36,750 nucleotides of DNA, taken from Bacillota bacterium. Lineage in GTDB: Bacteria > Chloroflexota > Dormibacteria > Dormibacterales > Dormibacteraceae. Numbering within the stretch: the stretch's first letter is position 1; every line of letters begins with the position of its first letter. The notes under the pieces were generated by a model. The model saw only the letters and a list, made by a program, of their open reading frames with translations. It was not told the DNA's origin and did not search any database. Below are positions 20,337 through 31,009 of this stretch, piece by piece. The DNA lies in NCBI GenBank assembly GCA_021323605.1, contig JAJPKS010000012.1:1-36750 (forward strand), written 5' to 3'. Both the position numbers and the translations under genes were made by a program.

Positions 20337-20463
20337 GGGCGAGAGCCCGGCGCGGCGATACGTGTCGAGGCGGGATCGCGGCGGAAGGCAGGGGTCGAAT
20401 TCATCCTCGGGAGAGGCGCATACTCACCTGCTGTACGCCGCGAATCAAGGTAAGGTGACCTCC

Positions 20464-21375
20464 GTGGCAACCCGCACGCTGCAGCGCCTGAGGGGGGCGG
20501 ACTTCCTCGACATCGCGCAGCTGGACGCCTCCCAGCTGCGCGAGATCCTGGATTTGGCGGGCGAGATCAAAGCCGGACGATGGTCGGGCCTTCCGCTCCG
20601 CGGACGGCGGCTGGCGCTCCTCTTCCAGAAGCCCTCGCTGCGCACCCGGGTTTCCTTCCAGGTGGGCATCGAGCGCCTGGGGGGCAGCGCGCTGGTGCTC
20701 GGCGAGCAGGAGGTCGGGCTCGGCCAGCGGGAGGCGGTGGAGGACGTGGCCAGGGTGCTCGACCGCTACGTAGACGGGATCGTGGCCAGGTTGTTCGCCC
20801 ACCGGGATCTGCTCGCTCTCGCCGGGGCCGCGAGCTGTCCCGTCATCAACGCGCTGACCGACGGCTCGCATCCCTGCCAGGTGCTGGCCGACCTGCTCAC
20901 CATGGAGGAGGTGCTGGGGCGGCTCGACTCGGCCACCCGGGTAGCGTTCGTGGGCGACGGCAACAACGTGGCCCGCTCCCTGATGGAGGCGGCGGCGATC
21001 ATCGGTTTCCAGCTGGTCGTGGTCTCGCCTCCGGAGCACCAGCTGGCGGTGACCGCGATGCCGGCCTGGGTCCAGGTCACGGCCGATCTCGACGCCGTTC
21101 GGGGAGTGGACGTCGTGTACACGGACGTGTGGACCTCGATGGGCCAGGAGACCGAAGCTCGGGCACGGAGGGCCCGGTTCCGGGAGTACCAGGTGAACGC
21201 CGAGCTGATGGCCAGGGCGCCGGGGGCGGTGTTCATGCACTGCCTGCCGGCCCATCGCGGGGAGGAGGTCACCGCCGAGGTCATCGACGGGCCGCGGTCG
21301 GTGGTCTTCGATCAGGCCGAGAACCGCCTGCACGCCCAGATGGCGCTGCTGGCCGCGATCTTCGGAGGGGTCTGA
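20464..21375 (+). CDS. argF: Ornithine carbamoyltransferase
   Basis: Makes citrulline from ornithine and carbamoyl phosphate in arginine synthesis. Carbamoyl-phosphate site KPSLRTRVSF (Leu in place of the common Thr), HPCQVLADLLTMEE, the VVYTDVWTSMGQE loop for ornithine, and HCLPAHRGEEV, the OTC signature with its Cys. 303 residues, normal. GTG 20464 was chosen for AAGGTGA five bases upstream; GTG 20455 is also possible. The 127-base gap upstream holds no clear promoter. It is alone among arginine genes here and its stop shares a base with the cdaA start, so both are probably cotranscribed. Confidence 0.95.
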   Translation: MATRTLQRLRGADFLDIAQLDASQLREILDLAGEIKAGRWSGLPLRGRRLALLFQKPSLRTRVSFQVGIERLGGSALVLGEQEVGLGQREAVEDVARVLDRYVDGIVARLFAHRDLLALAGAASCPVINALTDGSHPCQVLADLLTMEEVLGRLDSATRVAFVGDGNNVARSLMEAAAIIGFQLVVVSPPEHQLAVTAMPAWVQVTADLDAVRGVDVVYTDVWTSMGQETEARARRARFREYQVNAELMARAPGAVFMHCLPAHRGEEVTAEVIDGPRSVVFDQAENRLHAQMALLAAIFGGV

Positions 21376-22232
21376 TGGCCTTCCTCGGCGAGGCGCTGCA
21401 CCAGCTGCTGGCCATGCTGGCCCGGGTGGGGCCGGTCGAGATCATCGACGTGGTCGTGGTGGCCTTCATCCTCTATCAGCTGCTGCGGCTGGTCCGCGGC
21501 ACCCAGGCGATGCAGCTCATCGTCGGCCTGATCCTGCTGGGGATGCTGGGCCTGGCCGCCAGCTGGCTGCACCTGATCCTGCTCAGCTGGCTGTTCCAGA
21601 CCGCGGCCCCGTTCGTGGTCATCGCCATCATCGTGCTGTTCCAGCCGGAGCTCCGGCGGATGCTGGACCAGGTGGGACGTATCGGCCACCTGGGACGGCC
21701 TCTCTTCGCCTCCAACCCGCAGATCTTCAACCGCGCGGTCGCCGAGGCCATCAGGGCGGCGGAGCGGCTGGCGGCCCGCCACGTCGGCGCCCTGATCGCC
21801 TTCGAGCGGGAGGTCGGCCTGGAGGACTATGCCGCCACCGGCGTGCGCATCAACGGCGAGGTCTCGGCCGAGTTCCTGCAGAGCATCTTCTTCCCCAACT
21901 CCCCGCTGCACGACGGGGCCGTGATCGTCCGCGGCAGCACGATCCTCGCGGCCGGGTGCCTGCTGCCGCTCGCCGATGAGGCGACCGTTCGCGACCGCCT
22001 GGGCACCCGGCACCGGGCGGCCATCGGGCTGTCCCTGGCCTCCGACGCCCTGGTCCTGGTCGTGTCCGAGGAGACGGGGGGCATCTCCGTGGTCGAGAAC
22101 GGCCGTATCACCCGCAACCTGGACGTCGAAGGGCTGCGCCGGCGGTTGACGGGCGGGCTGGAGCCCTCCCGCCCGGCGGGGGGTGCGCGTCAACACCTGC
22201 TGGGCTGGCGGCTCACCGGTCCCAAACCATGA
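21375..22232 (+). CDS. cdaA: Diadenylate cyclase CdaA
   Basis: Membrane enzyme that makes the second messenger c-di-AMP from two ATP. Three hydrophobic segments at about residues 22-40, 45-64 and 66-90 precede the DAC (DisA_N) domain. The catalytic motifs are DGA at 180-182 in SPLHDGAVIV and RHR at 212-214 in GTRHRAAIG, followed by SEETGGISVVENG. 285 residues, normal. ATG preceded by GGAGGGG and joined to argF as TGATG. Followed by ybbR, its usual membrane regulator. Confidence 0.96.
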   Translation: MAFLGEALHQLLAMLARVGPVEIIDVVVVAFILYQLLRLVRGTQAMQLIVGLILLGMLGLAASWLHLILLSWLFQTAAPFVVIAIIVLFQPELRRMLDQVGRIGHLGRPLFASNPQIFNRAVAEAIRAAERLAARHVGALIAFEREVGLEDYAATGVRINGEVSAEFLQSIFFPNSPLHDGAVIVRGSTILAAGCLLPLADEATVRDRLGTRHRAAIGLSLASDALVLVVSEETGGISVVENGRITRNLDVEGLRRRLTGGLEPSRPAGGARQHLLGWRLTGPKP

Positions 22233-22247
22233 GATGAGGTGAGGGCC

Positions 22248-23324
22248 ATGCGCGGGATGAGCACGCCCCTGGCCTGGATCGTCACCAACTGGCGCCTGAA
22301 GCTGCTGGCGCTGGTGCTCGCGGTCGGTCTCCTGGGCGCCGTGGCCTTCTCCGAGAACCCACCGGAGATGGCCACGGTGCCGGTCAAGATCACCTACCAG
22401 GGGTTGCCCTCGAACCTGGTGCTGATCGATCCTCCCGGCAGTGTCGGCGTGCGGGTGGTGGGCCTGCAGGACGACGTGCGCCAGTACCGGCAGAGCGCGG
22501 CCGGAGTCACCATCGATCTGTCGCACGCGACCGTGGGTGACCACCTCTACGATGCCCAGCCCAGGGTGGACGTGCAGGGGGTGACGCCCCAGGACACGGT
22601 CATCCCCCTCCACCTCCGGATCGAGGAGCTGCGAACCGTGATGCTGGGGGTCGAGGTTCGGACGCCGAAGAAGGCACCGGGGATCGCGGTGGTGCCGAGC
22701 CAGACCTACGCCACCTGCGGGAACGCCAACGTGCCCTGCCAGGTGACGGTGACCGGACCGGCAGAGCTCGTCGATGGCCTCCACGCCTACGTGAACTACG
22801 ACGTGGCCATTCAATCCGCCAACGTCCAGACCAGCCCCGACCAAACCATCCTCTTCGAGAAGGGCGGGCATCCGGTGGACCTGAGGAGCTGGCACACCAT
22901 CCCGCCCCCGAGCTGGACCCCCAACGTGGTGACGGTCCAGGTGGCGACCGTCGGCGGCACCACCACCCGGACGGTGGGCCTGACCGTGCGCCCGATCGGC
23001 GTCCCGGCCTGTGGCTACGCCGTGGCCGGGGTGGACGTCCAGCCTGGCAGCTTCGTCACCGTGACCGGCCCCATCGGCCAGGTGGCCCGGTTGGGCGACA
23101 GCATCGGCCTCGACCCGGTCGACATCAGCGGCATCACCTCGACCCAGTCCTTCACCCGTGCCGTCCGCACCGGCTCCGATCAGATCACGGCCAGCCCGGC
23201 CTCGGTCCGCGTGGTGGTGAGCGTGGTGCCGGCCTTCAGCTGCGCGGCGCCCACGCCGGGGGCGGCCGGCCCTCGGCCCTCGCCCTCGTCCACGCCCAGC
23301 GCCGGTCCATCCTCCCCGCCCTGA
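22248..23324 (+). CDS. ybbR: YbbR-domain protein, CdaA regulator CdaR
   Basis: Single-span membrane protein with an extracytoplasmic YbbR region that in Firmicutes controls CdaA. The N-terminus TNWRLKLLALVLAVGLLGAVAF is a signal anchor (about residues 12-34). After it come three or four repeats of ~85 residues, recognisable by VPVKITYQGLP, VRVVGLQDDV, VTVTGPAELVDGL and VTVTGPIGQVARLG. The last ~30 residues are Pro/Ser/Ala-rich. ATG 22248 was chosen for the AGGTGAGG just upstream; GTG 22239 is possible. 358 residues. Confidence 0.92.
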   Translation: MRGMSTPLAWIVTNWRLKLLALVLAVGLLGAVAFSENPPEMATVPVKITYQGLPSNLVLIDPPGSVGVRVVGLQDDVRQYRQSAAGVTIDLSHATVGDHLYDAQPRVDVQGVTPQDTVIPLHLRIEELRTVMLGVEVRTPKKAPGIAVVPSQTYATCGNANVPCQVTVTGPAELVDGLHAYVNYDVAIQSANVQTSPDQTILFEKGGHPVDLRSWHTIPPPSWTPNVVTVQVATVGGTTTRTVGLTVRPIGVPACGYAVAGVDVQPGSFVTVTGPIGQVARLGDSIGLDPVDISGITSTQSFTRAVRTGSDQITASPASVRVVVSVVPAFSCAAPTPGAAGPRPSPSSTPSAGPSSPP

Positions 23325-23435
23325 TGGCGTCCACCCCCGGCGCCGCCCAGGTAACCGCCGGTCTCCGGCCCGCGTTCAACGTGCGAGCCCGGTGCGGCCC
23401 CCCTCCCTGTGCCGGCGAGTCCCAGGAGATCGACC

Positions 23436-25268
23436 ATGTGCGGCATCATCGGTTACCTCGGAACGAGAGAGGCGGCACCCGTGTTGATGGACGGGCTCCG
23501 GCGCCTGGAGTATCGTGGCTACGACTCCGCGGGGGTCGCGGTCGTGTCGCCCGGGGCCGAGGTCGCCAGCGTGGTCAAGTGCGCCGCCCGGGTGGAGCAG
23601 CTGATCGAGCAGCTGCGAACCGACATGCCCGCCGGCAGCCTGGGCGTCGGCCACACCCGCTGGGCCACGCACGGCAAGCCCACGGTGCTCAACGCCCATC
23701 CCCACACCGACTGCGGGCGCCGCATCACCGTCGTTCACAACGGCATCATCGAGAACTTCCGTGAGCTGAGGGAGGAGCTGGAGGGGGCCGGCCACGAGTT
23801 CCTGTCCGACACCGACACGGAGGTCGTGCCCCACCTGATCGAGCACCACTACCGGGGCGATTTCGTGGCCGCGACCCGGCACGCCCTGGGGCGCTTGCGG
23901 GGAGCCTACGCCCTGGTCATGTTCAGCCTCGACGAGCCGGAGCTGCTGGTGGGCGCCCGGTTGAACGCGCCGCTGGTGGTGGGGCTGGGCGAGGGCGAGT
24001 ACTTCATCGCCTCCGACATCGCCGCCATCGTGGCCTACACCAAGAAGGTCCTGGTCCTCGGCGAGGGAGAGATGGTCGTCGTGACCTCCCTGGGCCCCGT
24101 CGTCACCTCCCTGGACGGCATCCCGGTCGAGCCTCGGGTGCTCCACGTGGACTGGGACGTCAGCCAGGCGGAGCGGTCGGGGTACCCGCATTTCATGCTG
24201 AAGGAGATCCACGAGACCCCCGAGGCCGCCGCCAACGCCCTCCGGGGCCGGCTCGACCGCCAGGGTCACGTCGAGTTCACCGAGTTCGAGATGGACGACG
24301 AGCGGCTGCGGTCGCTGGAGGAGGTCCGTCTGCTGGGCATGGGCACCTCGCTCCACGCCGCCCTGGCGGGCGAGCACGTGATCGAGGATTGGGCCGGCCT
24401 GGCCGCGCGCGCACAGGATTCGTCGGAGTTCCGGTACCGTCGCCCGGTGCTGGGCGGGAACGCCCTGGTGGTGGCCATCACCCAGTCCGGCGAGACGGCC
24501 GACACCATCGTGGCCCTGCGGGCGGCCCGGGCGACGGGGGCGCTGGGAGTCGCGGTCACCAACGTCGTGGGCAGCACCGCGGCCCGGGACGCGGACGGGG
24601 CCATCTACCTGCAGGCGGGACCCGAGATCGGCGTCGCCTCCACCAAGACGTTCGTCGCCCACCTGGTCAGCCTCTATCTGCTGGCCTTGCGCCTGGCCAC
24701 CGCTCGGCGCCGGATGTCGCCGGAGCGGTGCGAGGAGCTGGCCGCGGAGTTGCGCTCGCTGCCCGACGCCGTTCGCCACCTGCTGGCCGGGGAGCCGGAG
24801 ATCGCCCGGCTGGCCCATCGCTACGCTGGCTACCGCAACTTCATGTACGTCGGCCGCGGCCTGGCCTACCCGGTGGCGCTGGAGGGCGCCCTCAAGCTGA
24901 AGGAGATCAGCTACGTCCACGCCGAGGGCACCTCCGGCGGCGAGCTCAAGCACGGCCCGATCGCGCTCCTGGACGCGGAGTTCCCGGTGGTCGCGGTCTG
25001 CACGGCAAGCCCGGTCAGGGAGAAGACGGTCGGCAACGTGCACGAGGTGGTGGCCCGGGGAGCGCCGGTGCTGGCCGTGGTGAGCGAGGGAGATCGGAGC
25101 CTGGAGGGGGTGGCCAGCGACCTGCTGGAGATCCCCCGCACCGGGGAGGCGGCGTCGGCGGTGCTGGCCAGCGTAGCCCTTCAGCTCTTCGCCTACCACC
25201 TCGCCGTCGAGCTGGGCCGCGACGTCGATCGGCCCCGGAACCTGGCCAAATCGGTCACGGTGGAATGA
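23436..25268 (+). CDS. glmS: Glutamine-fructose-6-phosphate aminotransferase (isomerizing)
   Basis: First step of amino-sugar synthesis for the cell wall. Start is fixed because catalytic Cys follows Met directly (MCGIIGYLG), with AGGAGAT upstream. The glutaminase domain shows LEYRGYDSAGVAV, GHTRWATHGKP, VHNGIIENF and SDTDTEV. The two SIS domains show MGTSLHAAL, TQSGETADT, VGRGLAYPVALEGALKLKE and EGTSGGELKHGPIALL, and it ends KSVTVE. 610 residues, full length. The 111-base gap upstream is too short for, and shows no sign of, a glmS ribozyme. glmM, usual between ybbR and glmS, is missing. Confidence 0.97.
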   Translation: MCGIIGYLGTREAAPVLMDGLRRLEYRGYDSAGVAVVSPGAEVASVVKCAARVEQLIEQLRTDMPAGSLGVGHTRWATHGKPTVLNAHPHTDCGRRITVVHNGIIENFRELREELEGAGHEFLSDTDTEVVPHLIEHHYRGDFVAATRHALGRLRGAYALVMFSLDEPELLVGARLNAPLVVGLGEGEYFIASDIAAIVAYTKKVLVLGEGEMVVVTSLGPVVTSLDGIPVEPRVLHVDWDVSQAERSGYPHFMLKEIHETPEAAANALRGRLDRQGHVEFTEFEMDDERLRSLEEVRLLGMGTSLHAALAGEHVIEDWAGLAARAQDSSEFRYRRPVLGGNALVVAITQSGETADTIVALRAARATGALGVAVTNVVGSTAARDADGAIYLQAGPEIGVASTKTFVAHLVSLYLLALRLATARRRMSPERCEELAAELRSLPDAVRHLLAGEPEIARLAHRYAGYRNFMYVGRGLAYPVALEGALKLKEISYVHAEGTSGGELKHGPIALLDAEFPVVAVCTASPVREKTVGNVHEVVARGAPVLAVVSEGDRSLEGVASDLLEIPRTGEAASAVLASVALQLFAYHLAVELGRDVDRPRNLAKSVTVE

Positions 25269-25349: not shown

Positions 25350-26597
25350 ATGGATGGTGAGGCCGTGCTGCATCGACACGGGATCGACGTGCTCGAGATC
25401 GCGCGCATGGAGACGGCGCTGAACCGCTCCGGGCCGGGTTTCCTGGCCCGGGCCTTCACGCCGGCCGAGGTCGCGGAGTGCGGCGGCGTCGCGGCCAGGC
25501 TGGCCGGACGCTGGGCGGCGAAGGAGGCGGTGATCAAGTGCTTCGCCGCCACCCCCATCTGCTTCCCGCGCCGGCGGATCGAGGTCCTGAGCGGTCCGGG
25601 CGGGGAGCCGCAGGTCCGCCTGCTCGGCGACGCTCGGGGCGCCCGGGTCCAGGTGACCATCACCCACGACGCCGGCCTGGCCATCGCCAGCGCCTGGCTG
25701 GAGATGCCCGAGCCGGGGGAGCGGCCACCGGCGCCCCCCGAAGCGGTGCGGCTGCCGGAGCGGCCGCCCGACGGCCACAAGGGCACGTTCGGGACCGTGG
25801 TCGTCGTGGCCGGCAGCCGTGGTCTGACCGGAGCGGCGTACCTGAGCGCCACCGCCGGCGTCCGGGCCGGGGCGGGCCTGGTGCGTCTCCTGGTCGCCGA
25901 GGGGATCTACCCCATCCTGGCCGTGAAGTGCACCGAGGCGATGGCCACGCCGCTGCCCGAGGACGCGCCGGGGGCGCTCGGGCCGACCGCCCTGGAAGCG
26001 GTGGAGGAGCACCTGCGGGCGGCCCGGGCCGCGCTCCTGGGGCCGGGCCTGGGGCGTCATCCGGCCACCTGGGAGCTGGTCCGGCGATTGGTCCCCCGGG
26101 TCGGCTGCCCGCTGGTGCTGGACGCCGACGCCCTGAACGCCCTGGGCGAGGTCCACGACCGGCTCGACCGGCTCGACGGCGTCCCTCCCGTGCTCACCCC
26201 CCACCCTGGCGAGATGGCCCGCCTGACCGGACGGTCGACGCGTGAGATCCAGGGGGCGCGCCACGAGATCGCGGCCGCCGCCGCGCGGGAGTGGGGAGCG
26301 GTGGTCCTGCTCAAGGGCGCGCGGACCGTGGTCGCCGCCCCGGACGGACGGCTGTCCGAGGACCCCCACGAGGTGCCCGCCCTTGCCTCGGGAGGCACCG
26401 GCGACGTGCTCGGGGGCCTGGTCGCCGGCCTGATCGCCCAGGGGCTGGACCCCTACACCGCCGCCGTCACCGGGGTCTACGTCCACGCCGAGGCAGGGCG
26501 ACGTCTCCAGGCGCGCCTGGGGACGGCCGGTTTGCTGGCCTCGGAGCTGCTGGGTGAGATCCCTCCGGTGATGAAGTCCATGAGGGAGTCCGGGTGA
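25350..26597 (+). CDS. Fusion of holo-ACP synthase (AcpS) and ADP-dependent NAD(P)HX dehydratase (NnrD)
   Basis: Two domains in one 415-residue frame. Residues ~5-119 are AcpS, which puts phosphopantetheine on acyl carrier protein: HGIDVLEIARM with Asp13, RAFTPAEVAEC, GRWAAKEAVIKCF with Glu59, and ITHDAGLAIASAW at its end. After a proline-rich linker (~120-136), residues ~137-410 are the NnrD half of YjeF, which repairs hydrated NADH: HKGTFGTVVVVAGS, TPHPGEMARLTG, SGGTGDVLGGLVAGLI, YVHAEAG. The partner epimerase domain NnrE is not here. No ribosome site before ATG 25350; GTG 25365 is an alternative. The 81-base gap upstream has no clear promoter. GTGA overlap with alr. Confidence 0.92.
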   Translation: MDGEAVLHRHGIDVLEIARMETALNRSGPGFLARAFTPAEVAECGGVAARLAGRWAAKEAVIKCFAATPICFPRRRIEVLSGPGGEPQVRLLGDARGARVQVTITHDAGLAIASAWLEMPEPGERPPAPPEAVRLPERPPDGHKGTFGTVVVVAGSRGLTGAAYLSATAGVRAGAGLVRLLVAEGIYPILAVKCTEAMATPLPEDAPGALGPTALEAVEEHLRAARAALLGPGLGRHPATWELVRRLVPRVGCPLVLDADALNALGEVHDRLDRLDGVPPVLTPHPGEMARLTGRSTREIQGARHEIAAAAAREWGAVVLLKGARTVVAAPDGRLSEDPHEVPALASGGTGDVLGGLVAGLIAQGLDPYTAAVTGVYVHAEAGRRLQARLGTAGLLASELLGEIPPVMKSMRESG

Positions 26598-27733
26598 GCG
26601 TCCCCGTCGCGGCGGCCGCGGCCACCGGTCGGTGGGCAGAGGTCGACCTCGGAGCCGTCCGGGCGAACGTGCGTCAGCTCCTCGGCCGTCTGCCGGACGG
26701 CTGCCGGCTCATCGCCGTGGTCAAGGCCGATGCCTACGGGCACGGCGCCCGGCCGGTGGCGGGGGCGGTGCTGGAGGCCGGCGCCTGGGGCCTGGCCGTC
26801 TCCACGCCCGAGGAGGCGCTGTCGCTGGTCGACCTGTGCGGGGGCGAGCGGCTCCTGATCATGGGGGGGCTGGCGCCGTCGTCCTGCGAGGCCGCGGTCA
26901 GGGTGGGCTGCGCCGTGGTGTGCTCGGCTCCCTGGATGGTCGAGGCCCTGGAGGCCGTGGTGCCGGCCGGACGCCGGCTGCCGGTGCACCTCGAGATCGA
27001 CACCGGCCTCCACCGACTGGGGTGCGCGGAGGAAGAGGCGCCGCGGCTGGCGAGCAGGATCGCCGGCTCCGGGCGGCTGCGCCTGGCCGGGACCATGACC
27101 CACTTCGCCTCCTCGGACAGCGATCCCCGCTTCACCCGCCTCCAGCTCGAGCGCTTCTTGGAAACGCTCTCCCGGTTCGACGTCGATCCCGGCATCCGAC
27201 ACGCGGCCAACTCCTGGGCGATCCTGCGCCATCCGGAGGCGGCGCTGGACGCCGTCCGCCCCGGGATCGCGCTCTACGGCTGCGCCGGGCAGCTCCGGCC
27301 CGCGCTCGCCCTGCACGCGCTGGTGACCCAGGTCCGAGACGTGCGCAGCGGGCACTCGGTGGGCTACGGACGGACCTGGATCGCTCCCCGTCCGGCGCGC
27401 ATCGCCACGGTCGCGATCGGGTACGAGGACGGGATCATGCGCAGCCGCTCCAACCGTGGCCACGTGCTGGTCCGGGGCGTTCGGGCCCCGCTGGTCGGGC
27501 GGGTGAGCATGGATTCGATCACGGTCGACGTCAGCGACGTCCCCGACGTGGAGCCGGGAGACCCGGTCACCCTGATCGGCGGGGGGATCACGGCCGAGGA
27601 GGTCGCGGCCTGGAGCGGGACCATCCCCTACGAGGTGCTGACCTCGCTGGGGAACCGGGTGGCCCGGGTCTACCGGGAGACCGCGGAGCGGACCGTGCCG
27701 ACCGGGGATCGCGCCCGGGGTCAGGAGGAATAG
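26594..27733 (+). CDS. alr: Alanine racemase
   Basis: PLP enzyme that makes D-alanine for peptidoglycan. PLP-binding Lys44 lies in VVKADAYGHGA near the N-terminus, and the second catalytic residue, a Tyr, in SVGYGRTWIA. Other signs: HLEIDTGLHRLG, FASSDSDPRFTRLQLERF, RPGIALYGC, GYEDGIMRS and RVSMDSITVDVSDVP. 379 residues, normal. GTG start overlapping the fusion gene; the acpS-nnr-alr order is common in Gram-positive-like bacteria. Its stop codon bases form part of the candidate promoter of the next gene. Confidence 0.96.
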   Translation: MSVPVAAAAATGRWAEVDLGAVRANVRQLLGRLPDGCRLIAVVKADAYGHGARPVAGAVLEAGAWGLAVSTPEEALSLVDLCGGERLLIMGGLAPSSCEAAVRVGCAVVCSAPWMVEALEAVVPAGRRLPVHLEIDTGLHRLGCAEEEAPRLASRIAGSGRLRLAGTMTHFASSDSDPRFTRLQLERFLETLSRFDVDPGIRHAANSWAILRHPEAALDAVRPGIALYGCAGQLRPALALHALVTQVRDVRSGHSVGYGRTWIAPRPARIATVAIGYEDGIMRSRSNRGHVLVRGVRAPLVGRVSMDSITVDVSDVPDVEPGDPVTLIGGGITAEEVAAWSGTIPYEVLTSLGNRVARVYRETAERTVPTGDRARGQEE

Positions 27734-29332: not shown

Positions 29333-30334
29333 TCAGGCGCAGTCGGCGAAGTCCTGGGTGAACATCTCCTCGTAGCCGCCGAGGCCGCGATAGGCCCCGA
29401 TGCCGACGCAGCGGAAGTCGGGGTTCAGGATGTTGGCGCGGTGATCGGGGCTGGCCATGAGGAGGCTCCACGCCTGGTCCAGGTTCTCGGCGAAGGCGAT
29501 GTTCTCTCCGGCGGTGACATAGTGGAAGTGCAGGGCCTGGAGCCGCTGGTAGGGGGTCTGCCCGGTGGGGGTGCGGTGGGAGAAGTAATGACGTCGATAC
29601 ATGTCCAGACTGTGCTGACGCGCCGCCTCACGGAGCACCGGGTTCATCACCAGCGGCGCCAGGCCGGCCTGGGCGCGCGCCTGGTTGATCTGCTGGAGCA
29701 TGGCCTCCTCGTCGGCCGGGGCGGGCTGGACCTGGAGATCGGCCGGGAGCTTCAGGCGATAGAAGGCGTCCTGGCCGGGGTTCATGGGCGGGGCGCTGAC
29801 CAGGATCTGGTCCGAGGAGGGCGCTCCCGGCACCAGCAGGCGCTGGAGGGGCTCCTGCAGAGGTGCGGCCAGGTTGGTGATCTCGGGCGCGAGGAGGGAT
29901 CCCTGGACCAGTTGCTGGGCGCCGCTGAAGGGGACGACCAGGAGCGATGAGAGCCCCAGGGTCGAGACCAGGGCCGCCACCCCGAGGGCGGGGATGGCGC
30001 TCGCCACCGCCCGGGGACGGGGGGGAAGGCCACCGGCGGCGACCGCAAGCCGGCCGCAGAGCTTTCCCATCGGAGTCTGCACCAGCGCGTGCACGATGGC
30101 CAGGGGGACGAGGAAGGCCCCGAACCCGGCCACGTTCTGAGGGATGCCGACGTGCCGGTGGATGAACTGCCCTGCGGGCCAGGCGAGGGGGAGGGCCACG
30201 GCCAGGGCGGCCACGAACGCCACCAGCTCGGTGAGGTAGGGTACGAAACCACGTCGTGCCGCGTGGACGACGAGGGCGGCGGTGCCGCCGATCAGGATCG
30301 GATCGAGCAGGTTGGCGTGAAACGGCAGGTGCAC
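29333..30334 (-). CDS. Membrane protein with CvpA-like N-terminus and C-terminal CAP domain
   Basis: 333 residues, the only gene on this strand. The N-terminal half has about four hydrophobic segments (PILIGGTAALVVHAARR; LTELVAFVAALAVALPLAW; FGAFLVPLAIVHALV; AIPALGVAALVSTLGLSSLLVV) resembling CvpA/colicin V production proteins. The C-terminal ~125 residues are a CAP/SCP domain: INQARAQAGLAPL, HSLDMYRRHYFSH, GENIAFAENL and SPDHRANILNPDF, similar to bacterial YkwD-type proteins. It is probably anchored with CAP outside. Role unknown. GTG start, no ribosome site; TATACT (30344-30349, complement) ends nine bases upstream. Confidence 0.85.
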   Translation of the reverse strand: MHLPFHANLLDPILIGGTAALVVHAARRGFVPYLTELVAFVAALAVALPLAWPAGQFIHRHVGIPQNVAGFGAFLVPLAIVHALVQTPMGKLCGRLAVAAGGLPPRPRAVASAIPALGVAALVSTLGLSSLLVVPFSGAQQLVQGSLLAPEITNLAAPLQEPLQRLLVPGAPSSDQILVSAPPMNPGQDAFYRLKLPADLQVQPAPADEEAMLQQINQARAQAGLAPLVMNPVLREAARQHSLDMYRRHYFSHRTPTGQTPYQRLQALHFHYVTAGENIAFAENLDQAWSLLMASPDHRANILNPDFRCVGIGAYRGLGGYEEMFTQDFADCA

Positions 30335-30343
30335 CGGGTGAGG

Positions 30344-30349
30344 AGTATA
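30344..30349 (-). promoter_or_regulatory. -10 element of the CAP-domain gene
   Basis: TATACT on the minus strand, nine bases before the GTG of the CAP gene. No good -35 is seen. Together with the missing ribosome site it suggests a leaderless or very short-leader mRNA. The element lies in the 21 bases between two divergent start codons. Confidence 0.4.
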
Positions 30350-30355
30350 GGTTCG

Positions 30356-31009
30356 GTGAGCCCGACCCGACGGCAGGCGCTGGAGCGCATCCGCACCGCC
30401 CGCTTGTACGCCATCACCCCCGAGGCCGCTCCCGAGCGAATCGTTTCCCTGGTGACGGCCTGGCTGCGTGGCGGCGTGGACGTGGTGCAGCTGCGGCTGA
30501 AGCGGCTCCCGCGTGGGCAGCTGGTGCGGCTGGCCGACCGCCTGGCGCCGGCGTGCGCGGCCGCGGGCGTGCCCTTCATCGTCGACGACCAGGTGGACGT
30601 GGCCCTGCTCAGCGGTGCCACCGGGGTCCACGTGGGTCCCGACGACCTGAGCGTGGCCGCGGTGCGGCGTGTGTCCGGCGACCTGGTGGTGGGGGCCTCG
30701 GCGGCGACGCCGGAGGAGGCGCGGGAGGCGGTGCGCCAGGGGGCCGACTACCTCGGCTCCGGGCCCGCCTATGCCACCCCGATCAAGACCCGAAAGCCCG
30801 TGATCGGCCCCGCCGGTGTGGCGGCGGTGGCGGCGGCGGTGACGGTCCCGGTGTTCGCCATCGGCGGCATCGAGCGATCGCGCCTGGCCGAGCTCCAGTC
30901 GGCGGGGGTGGGACGGGTCTGTGCCATCCGTGCCCTGAGCGAGGCCGCCGACCCCGAGGCGGAGGTGCGGGCCTGGCGCCGGGCGCTGTACGGGTCACCG
31001 CTCCGGTGA
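30356..31009 (+). CDS. thiE: Thiamine-phosphate synthase
   Basis: Joins the pyrimidine and thiazole halves of thiamine. Motifs: RLYAITPEA, GVDVVQLRLKRLP (usual VQLREK, here Leu for Glu), FIVDDQVDVALL, GATGVHVGPDDL, ASAATPEEAREAVRQGADYLGSGPAYATPIKTRKP, and PVFAIGGI. 217 residues from GTG 30356; GTG 30338 in the same frame is possible. It is divergent from the CAP gene with at most 21 bases between starts. GTGA overlap with thiL. Confidence 0.92.
   Translation: MSPTRRQALERIRTARLYAITPEAAPERIVSLVTAWLRGGVDVVQLRLKRLPRGQLVRLADRLAPACAAAGVPFIVDDQVDVALLSGATGVHVGPDDLSVAAVRRVSGDLVVGASAATPEEAREAVRQGADYLGSGPAYATPIKTRKPVIGPAGVAAVAAAVTVPVFAIGGIERSRLAELQSAGVGRVCAIRALSEAADPEAEVRAWRRALYGSPLR

Follow-up and report, generated by a model that had tools for sequence, protein, structure and literature searches.

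A conserved AcpS-NnrD fusion gene in Dormibacteria, with the epimerase NnrE encoded elsewhere

The window, by which we mean the whole 36,750-nucleotide stretch of DNA analyzed here, contains a gene in which an AcpS-type phosphopantetheinyl transferase is joined to the dehydratase NnrD. This joining of two enzymes is real, under selection and recurrent; the enzymes themselves are known, and so is their being encoded side by side. Most likely the product is a single bifunctional housekeeping protein, flexibly tethered, with a separate NnrE acting in trans. Dormibacteria are a class of uncultured soil bacteria; the window genome is a draft metagenome-assembled genome (494 contigs, 88.8% complete) and the genomes compared with it are drafts of the same kind.

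Results

One reading frame, two complete domains

The gene and its parts are as follows.

25350..26597, + strand: acpS-nnrD fusion gene, 415 aa; a homologous frame is present in 60 of the 61 Dormibacteria genomes
25350..25709, + strand: AcpS-type phosphopantetheinyl transferase domain, residues 1-120 (Pfam ACPS, invariant residues, Foldseek); codons of D13 at 25386-25388, E59 at 25524-25526 and H106 at 25665-25667
25710..25760, + strand: linker, residues about 121-137, differing among members of the class in both length and sequence (alignment A1, dN/dS)
25749..26579, + strand: NnrD, ADP-dependent (S)-NAD(P)H-hydrate dehydratase domain, residues 134-410 (TIGR00196, phmmer, Foldseek); codon of D352 at 26403-26405

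The initial annotation, made from the letters of the window, described AcpS and NnrD in one frame without a stop, and translation, Pfam and NCBIfam searches show this to be genuine. The frame has no internal stop codon; translation may in fact begin at the GTG at 25365, since most relatives start near there, and the finding is unaffected by this choice. Pfam ACPS (PF01648) matches residues 11-111 (E 4.4e-13; 49.7 bits, cut-off 25) and Carb_kinase (PF01256) matches residues 150-405 (E 1.1e-55; 189 bits, cut-off 27), while the NCBIfam model for NnrD, TIGR00196, scores 206.5 bits against a cut-off of 129.85. A search of the 415 aa with the NnrE domain (YjeF_N, PF03853) gave no match. As first suggested, AcpS occupies the N-terminal place usually held by NnrE.

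The N-terminal part clears the general phosphopantetheinyl transferase model TIGR00556 (55.6 bits, cut-off 45.35) and falls below the stricter AcpS equivalog TIGR00516 (42.6 bits, cut-off 59.8). It is nonetheless best read as a divergent AcpS, because a fused homologue from another Dormibacteria family (L036) clears TIGR00516 with 77.1 bits. The fusion carries the metal-binding Asp and Glu, KEAxxK and the conserved His of AcpS. Identity as an Sfp/PptT-type enzyme, which is about 220 aa long and two-lobed, was ruled out by the single AcpS-length domain. The initial claim that the motifs of both enzymes are complete was confirmed in alignment A1, where 21 of 21 diverse fused relatives keep D13, K58, E59 and K63, at least 90% keep H106, and the NnrD motifs TPHPxE and GxGDVL (with D352) are invariant. 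In their longer forms GGTGDVL, TPHPGE and HKGTFG are invariant or nearly so, and they align to TM0922 and YxkO.

An AlphaFold2 model of the fusion, computed as a monomer with an alignment of the window and locus proteins (A2), folds both domains confidently (pLDDT 92.6, pTM 0.81), even though the C-terminal half of the stand-alone AcpS rows in A2 is misaligned. Its confidence is lowest at residues 68-70, the shortened loop following KEAxxK. In Foldseek searches the C-terminal part matched TM0922 (E 7.6e-25) and B. subtilis YxkO (E about 1e-20), and the N-terminal part matched S. coelicolor AcpS-CoA (2wdy/2jbz) and H. pylori AcpS (5xuk) at E about 1e-8 to 1e-7.

The fusion is conserved and under selection throughout the class

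Of the 61 Dormibacteria genomes compared, the window's own counted, 60 have the same fusion, and so do all 34 of high quality; it covers 4 families and 26 genera, with fused homologues at about 38-71% identity. A sequencing or binning error would be conceivable in a draft assembly of 494 contigs, but the fusion recurs in frame in separately assembled genomes, with its flanking genes conserved. This refutes an artifact, to which we attach practically no probability, and it disposes of a frameshift or stop between the domains, which the initial annotation had named as grounds for giving up the fusion.

Incomplete copies are mostly cut by contig ends (G024, G045, G056 and G060). In G034 (L054, G034:C359, 5104-6206) two overlapping frames take the place of one, probably through an assembly frameshift. 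In G048 (L233, G048:C59, about 1990-2030) the stretch of the AcpS part from GVDVAAI to KEAIGKA is shorter by about 35-40 codons; this deletion lies at a short GGCGATC repeat and may be real or an assembly collapse. Two fusion copies (contigs C68 and C16) and two nnrE genes occur in G042, which could reflect duplication or a bin that mixes strains.

Across eleven pairs, dN/dS ranged from 0.01 to 0.37 for the AcpS part and from 0.06 to 0.25 for the NnrD part. Both domains are under purifying selection. The linker reached 0.86 and was relaxed relative to both domains in most pairs. A flexible, variable linker would suit an arrangement in which the single frame yields two proteins, by internal initiation or proteolysis, with no functional fusion in the cell; however, alignment A1 shows no conserved start codon in the linker, and we regard such processing as very improbable.

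Apart from the two copies in G042, the fusion is the sole full NnrD of each genome, other matches being weak and partial. It is also the sole PF01648 match in about 49 of 60 genomes, including G037 (1.5 Mb, 98% complete), and an acyl carrier protein was found in 8 of the 8 genomes tested. The window genome encodes in addition a PptT-like transferase as a separate gene (L004, G000:C14, 1195-1857), and carrier domains lie in open frames of 2169 and 1620 aa (contigs C186 and C280). Together the PptT-like enzyme and the long carrier frames suggest NRPS/PKS-type megasynthases in this genome; the PptT-like transferase would then serve secondary metabolism, which the long carrier frames fit.

These observations bear on whether the AcpS domain is only a structural or regulatory appendage, with a PptT/Sfp-like transferase activating the carrier protein instead. 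The shortfall against TIGR00516, the long branches within the Dormibacteria AcpS clade and the PptT-like enzyme in the window genome all point that way. We nevertheless hold it to be unlikely, on the grounds that: (i) Asp13, Lys58, Glu59 and Lys63 are invariant in the 21 relatives and His106 is nearly so; (ii) the AcpS part has the low dN/dS values given above; (iii) most relatives, G037 among them, have no other ACPS-family match and (iv) the fused homologue L036 passes the AcpS cut-off.

The epimerase NnrE is encoded separately

The initial annotation stated that NnrE is missing, which holds for the window but not for the genome, where a single-domain nnrE lies on contig C382, unlinked to the fusion. 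The search for a separate NnrE gene that it proposed was equally productive across the class; 56 of 61 genomes (33 of the 34 of high quality) have a standalone NnrE, on contigs other than that of the fusion. Lys179, Asp117 and Asp150 are invariant in 30 aligned copies. In E. coli YjeF the conserved lysine K192 has been reported as essential for epimerase activity (PMC5938422), and Lys179, the candidate catalytic lysine, would be its equivalent. The same source gives a half-time of 40 min for the spontaneous interconversion of the R and S epimers (PMC5938422). How the R epimer is handled, a question raised at the outset, is therefore no puzzle, given a standalone NnrE and epimers that equilibrate spontaneously.

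In the window's family the standalone nnrE is the middle gene of a conserved trio, with a distant SufR-like HTH regulator on one side and a metallo-beta-lactamase-fold gene on the other (L001 at G000:C382, 242-2756, and L147-L150, L153-L156 and L158-L162). Within the flanks examined, the trio context was absent from the nnrE loci of families f2-f4.

Gene neighborhood

The genes flanking the fusion in the window are these.

20362..21375, + strand: argF-like ornithine carbamoyltransferase (Pfam OTCace), a conserved neighbor by synteny
21372..22232, + strand: cdaA, diadenylate cyclase (Pfam DAC/CdaA_N), a conserved neighbor by synteny
22239..23324, + strand: cdaR/ybbR-like (Pfam YbbR), a conserved neighbor by synteny
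23409..25268, + strand: glmS (Pfam SIS/GATase), upstream of the fusion class-wide
26594..27733, + strand: alr, alanine racemase (Pfam Ala_racemase_N/C), 3' of the fusion in most relatives

The order argF-cdaA-cdaR-glmS-fusion-alr-tsaE is kept across Dormibacteria, with local gaps. The GTG start of alr overlaps the stop codon of the fusion, so the two are probably translationally coupled. Within 22239-25268 glmS follows cdaA-cdaR directly, with no glmM between, and L165 has a glmM-like frame before glmS. Further along, at 29333-30631 on the - strand, a 432-aa frame combines a CvpA-like (Colicin_V) membrane domain with a CAP domain.

Unfused relatives and a second origin in Clostridia

Elsewhere in the Chloroflexota sample, acpS usually precedes a fused nnrE-nnrD. 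In some genomes, however, acpS is followed directly by nnrD with no nnrE between (5 of 5 checked in family f32, G238 of f39 and G284 of f76), the two genes being separated by a few to 48 bases or by one stop; in G325 (f32) the order is glmS-acpS-nnrD-alr. These intermediates support the initial suggestion that the fusion grew out of neighboring genes, and unfused acpS|nnrD is the expected precursor, although f32, f39 and f76 need not be sisters of Dormibacteria. G284, considered as a fusion in another Chloroflexota family, was rejected for the stop codons between acpS and nnrD, and G325 for a TAA between the genes.

The architecture is also present in Clostridia. It was found in genome L060, and at least 30 of 391 sampled genomes of that class have one stop-free match across both domains; when 20 Clostridial loci were inspected, 16 were single-frame fusions, 2 had a stop between the domains and 2 were acpS|nnrE-nnrD. 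The notion that the fusion is unique to the Dormibacteria lineage was thereby rejected and, with the architecture class-wide in Dormibacteria as well, the rarity implied by the initial annotation did not hold.

In the AcpS trees the Dormibacteria domains lie to the same side of one branch with SH-aLRT 92-94, and an NnrD tree keeping Dormibacteria together has a likelihood 18.8 log units above that of the free quick tree. A single clade of Dormibacteria and Clostridial fusions was rejected for both AcpS (p-AU 0.002) and NnrD (p-AU 2e-63), the Clostridial group tested having taken in two adjacent-gene loci. With L060 alone added, a single clade was not rejected for NnrD (p 0.36), whereas the larger Clostridial set rejects it. 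Since the single clade is rejected, the fusion arose at least twice.

Discussion

The likely history of the gene starts from acpS next to a fused nnrE-nnrD, from which the nnrE part would have been lost or relocated to leave acpS|nnrD. The stop of acpS would then have been lost, in Dormibacteria a single time, ahead of their radiation, and in Clostridia independently.

Whether the joining brought any advantage is the point at which a serious rival enters. Co-transcribed neighbors may simply have lost a stop, leaving two independent enzymes that gain nothing from being joined. Stop loss is an easy step to fusion where unfused relatives keep the genes so close together, and the linker is unconserved in both sequence and length. 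On the other hand, the fusion is fixed class-wide, with no reversal in the sampled genomes, and recurs in Clostridia, which exceeds the simplest expectation from drift, although common ancestry accounts for most of the Dormibacteria count. We give this neutral origin somewhat less than an even chance; it differs from our preferred reading only in the matter of advantage, and the likelihoods that we assign to the two overlap.

Our preferred reading remains the tethered bifunctional protein. The AcpS domain would move 4'-phosphopantetheine from CoA to the acyl carrier protein of fatty-acid synthesis by way of the metal-binding Asp13 and Glu59, the NnrD domain would dehydrate S-NAD(P)HX to NAD(P)H with ADP (or ATP), and the R epimer would be handled by the unlinked NnrE in trans, aided by spontaneous epimerization. 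At the level of the polypeptide, carrier-protein activation is indeed tied to NAD(P)H repair, as was first proposed. The benefit could lie in fixed stoichiometry and in expressing NADPH repair together with the activation of a fatty-acid synthase that consumes NADPH. Such a dosage benefit is most likely, rather than passage of substrate between active sites, because the tether is flexible and poorly conserved, and a flexible tether that fixes the dosage of the two functions is the most economical mechanism.

There are points that count against this reading. The window's AcpS domain is divergent and shortened after KEAxxK, it falls below TIGR00516, and a PptT-like transferase is encoded in the same genome. 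The comparison rests on draft genomes, and one of them, G048, has the deletion inside the AcpS domain described above. AcpS is a homotrimer with its active site between subunits and NnrD is a tetramer or octamer, which would raise a problem of assembly when the two are joined. It is also conceivable, though we consider it quite improbable, that the fusion is a functional coupler. In that case the state of NAD(P)HX, ADP or 3',5'-ADP at NnrD would gate how the AcpS trimer activates the carrier, or vice versa, and the trimeric and the tetrameric or octameric enzyme might together form a large closed assembly. If so, fatty-acid synthesis would be switched on only where the NADPH pool stays clean.

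When two enzymes have been fused more than once independently, this is classic 'Rosetta stone' evidence of a joint function, and the recurrence seen here suggests a real link between carrier-protein activation and NADH/NADPH repair. There is precedent for this association at the level of gene clusters. Niehaus et al. 2018 (PMC5938422) describe nnr genes as clustering in seven phyla with genes for holo-ACP synthase; they call the significance unclear and name the use of NADPH in making lipids as a possible reason. The same paper considers 1,248 genomes that contain both epimerase and dehydratase genes and reports a fusion of the two in 97% of them. With unfused pairs so seldom seen, the earlier clustering is ambiguous as to epimerase or dehydratase, and it does not reveal which nnr activity is the one linked to enzymes of vitamin B6, alanine racemase among them (PMC5938422). 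Dormibacteria part the pair, the dehydratase staying by acpS and alr while the epimerase lies elsewhere, and this separation makes the question of which activity is the linked partner directly testable.

As to whether the fusion is already common and described, which the initial annotation had left for checking, it is recurrent, but we found no paper describing it in the open-licence literature, and the passages of PMC5938422 on acyl carrier protein or fusions do not mention it. Provisionally, then, the AcpS-NnrD fusion is undescribed; its parts and neighborhood are known and the architecture is new.

The fusion can be set against several known systems. With the bifunctional NnrE-NnrD proteins (E. 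coli YjeF/Nnr and T. maritima TM0922) it shares the C-terminal NnrD, at 36% identity to TM0922, but its N-terminal partner is AcpS rather than NnrE, which is separate and unlinked. Stand-alone NnrD, as in B. subtilis YxkO, has the same dehydratase fold and motifs without a fused transferase. Stand-alone AcpS (group I PPTase; 2jbz, 5xuk) shares the fold, the Asp/Glu metal pair, KEAxxK and the conserved His, whereas in the fusion the loop after KEAxxK is shortened and variable and the C-terminus is joined to NnrD. The acpS-yjeF clusters of Niehaus et al. 2018 (PMC5938422) show the same acpS/nnr association, but as separate genes. Finally, the C-terminal PPT domain of fungal FAS alpha (phmmer E about 1e-5) is likewise an AcpS-like domain within a larger polypeptide; there it is joined to the synthase that it activates, whereas here AcpS is joined to a metabolite-repair enzyme.
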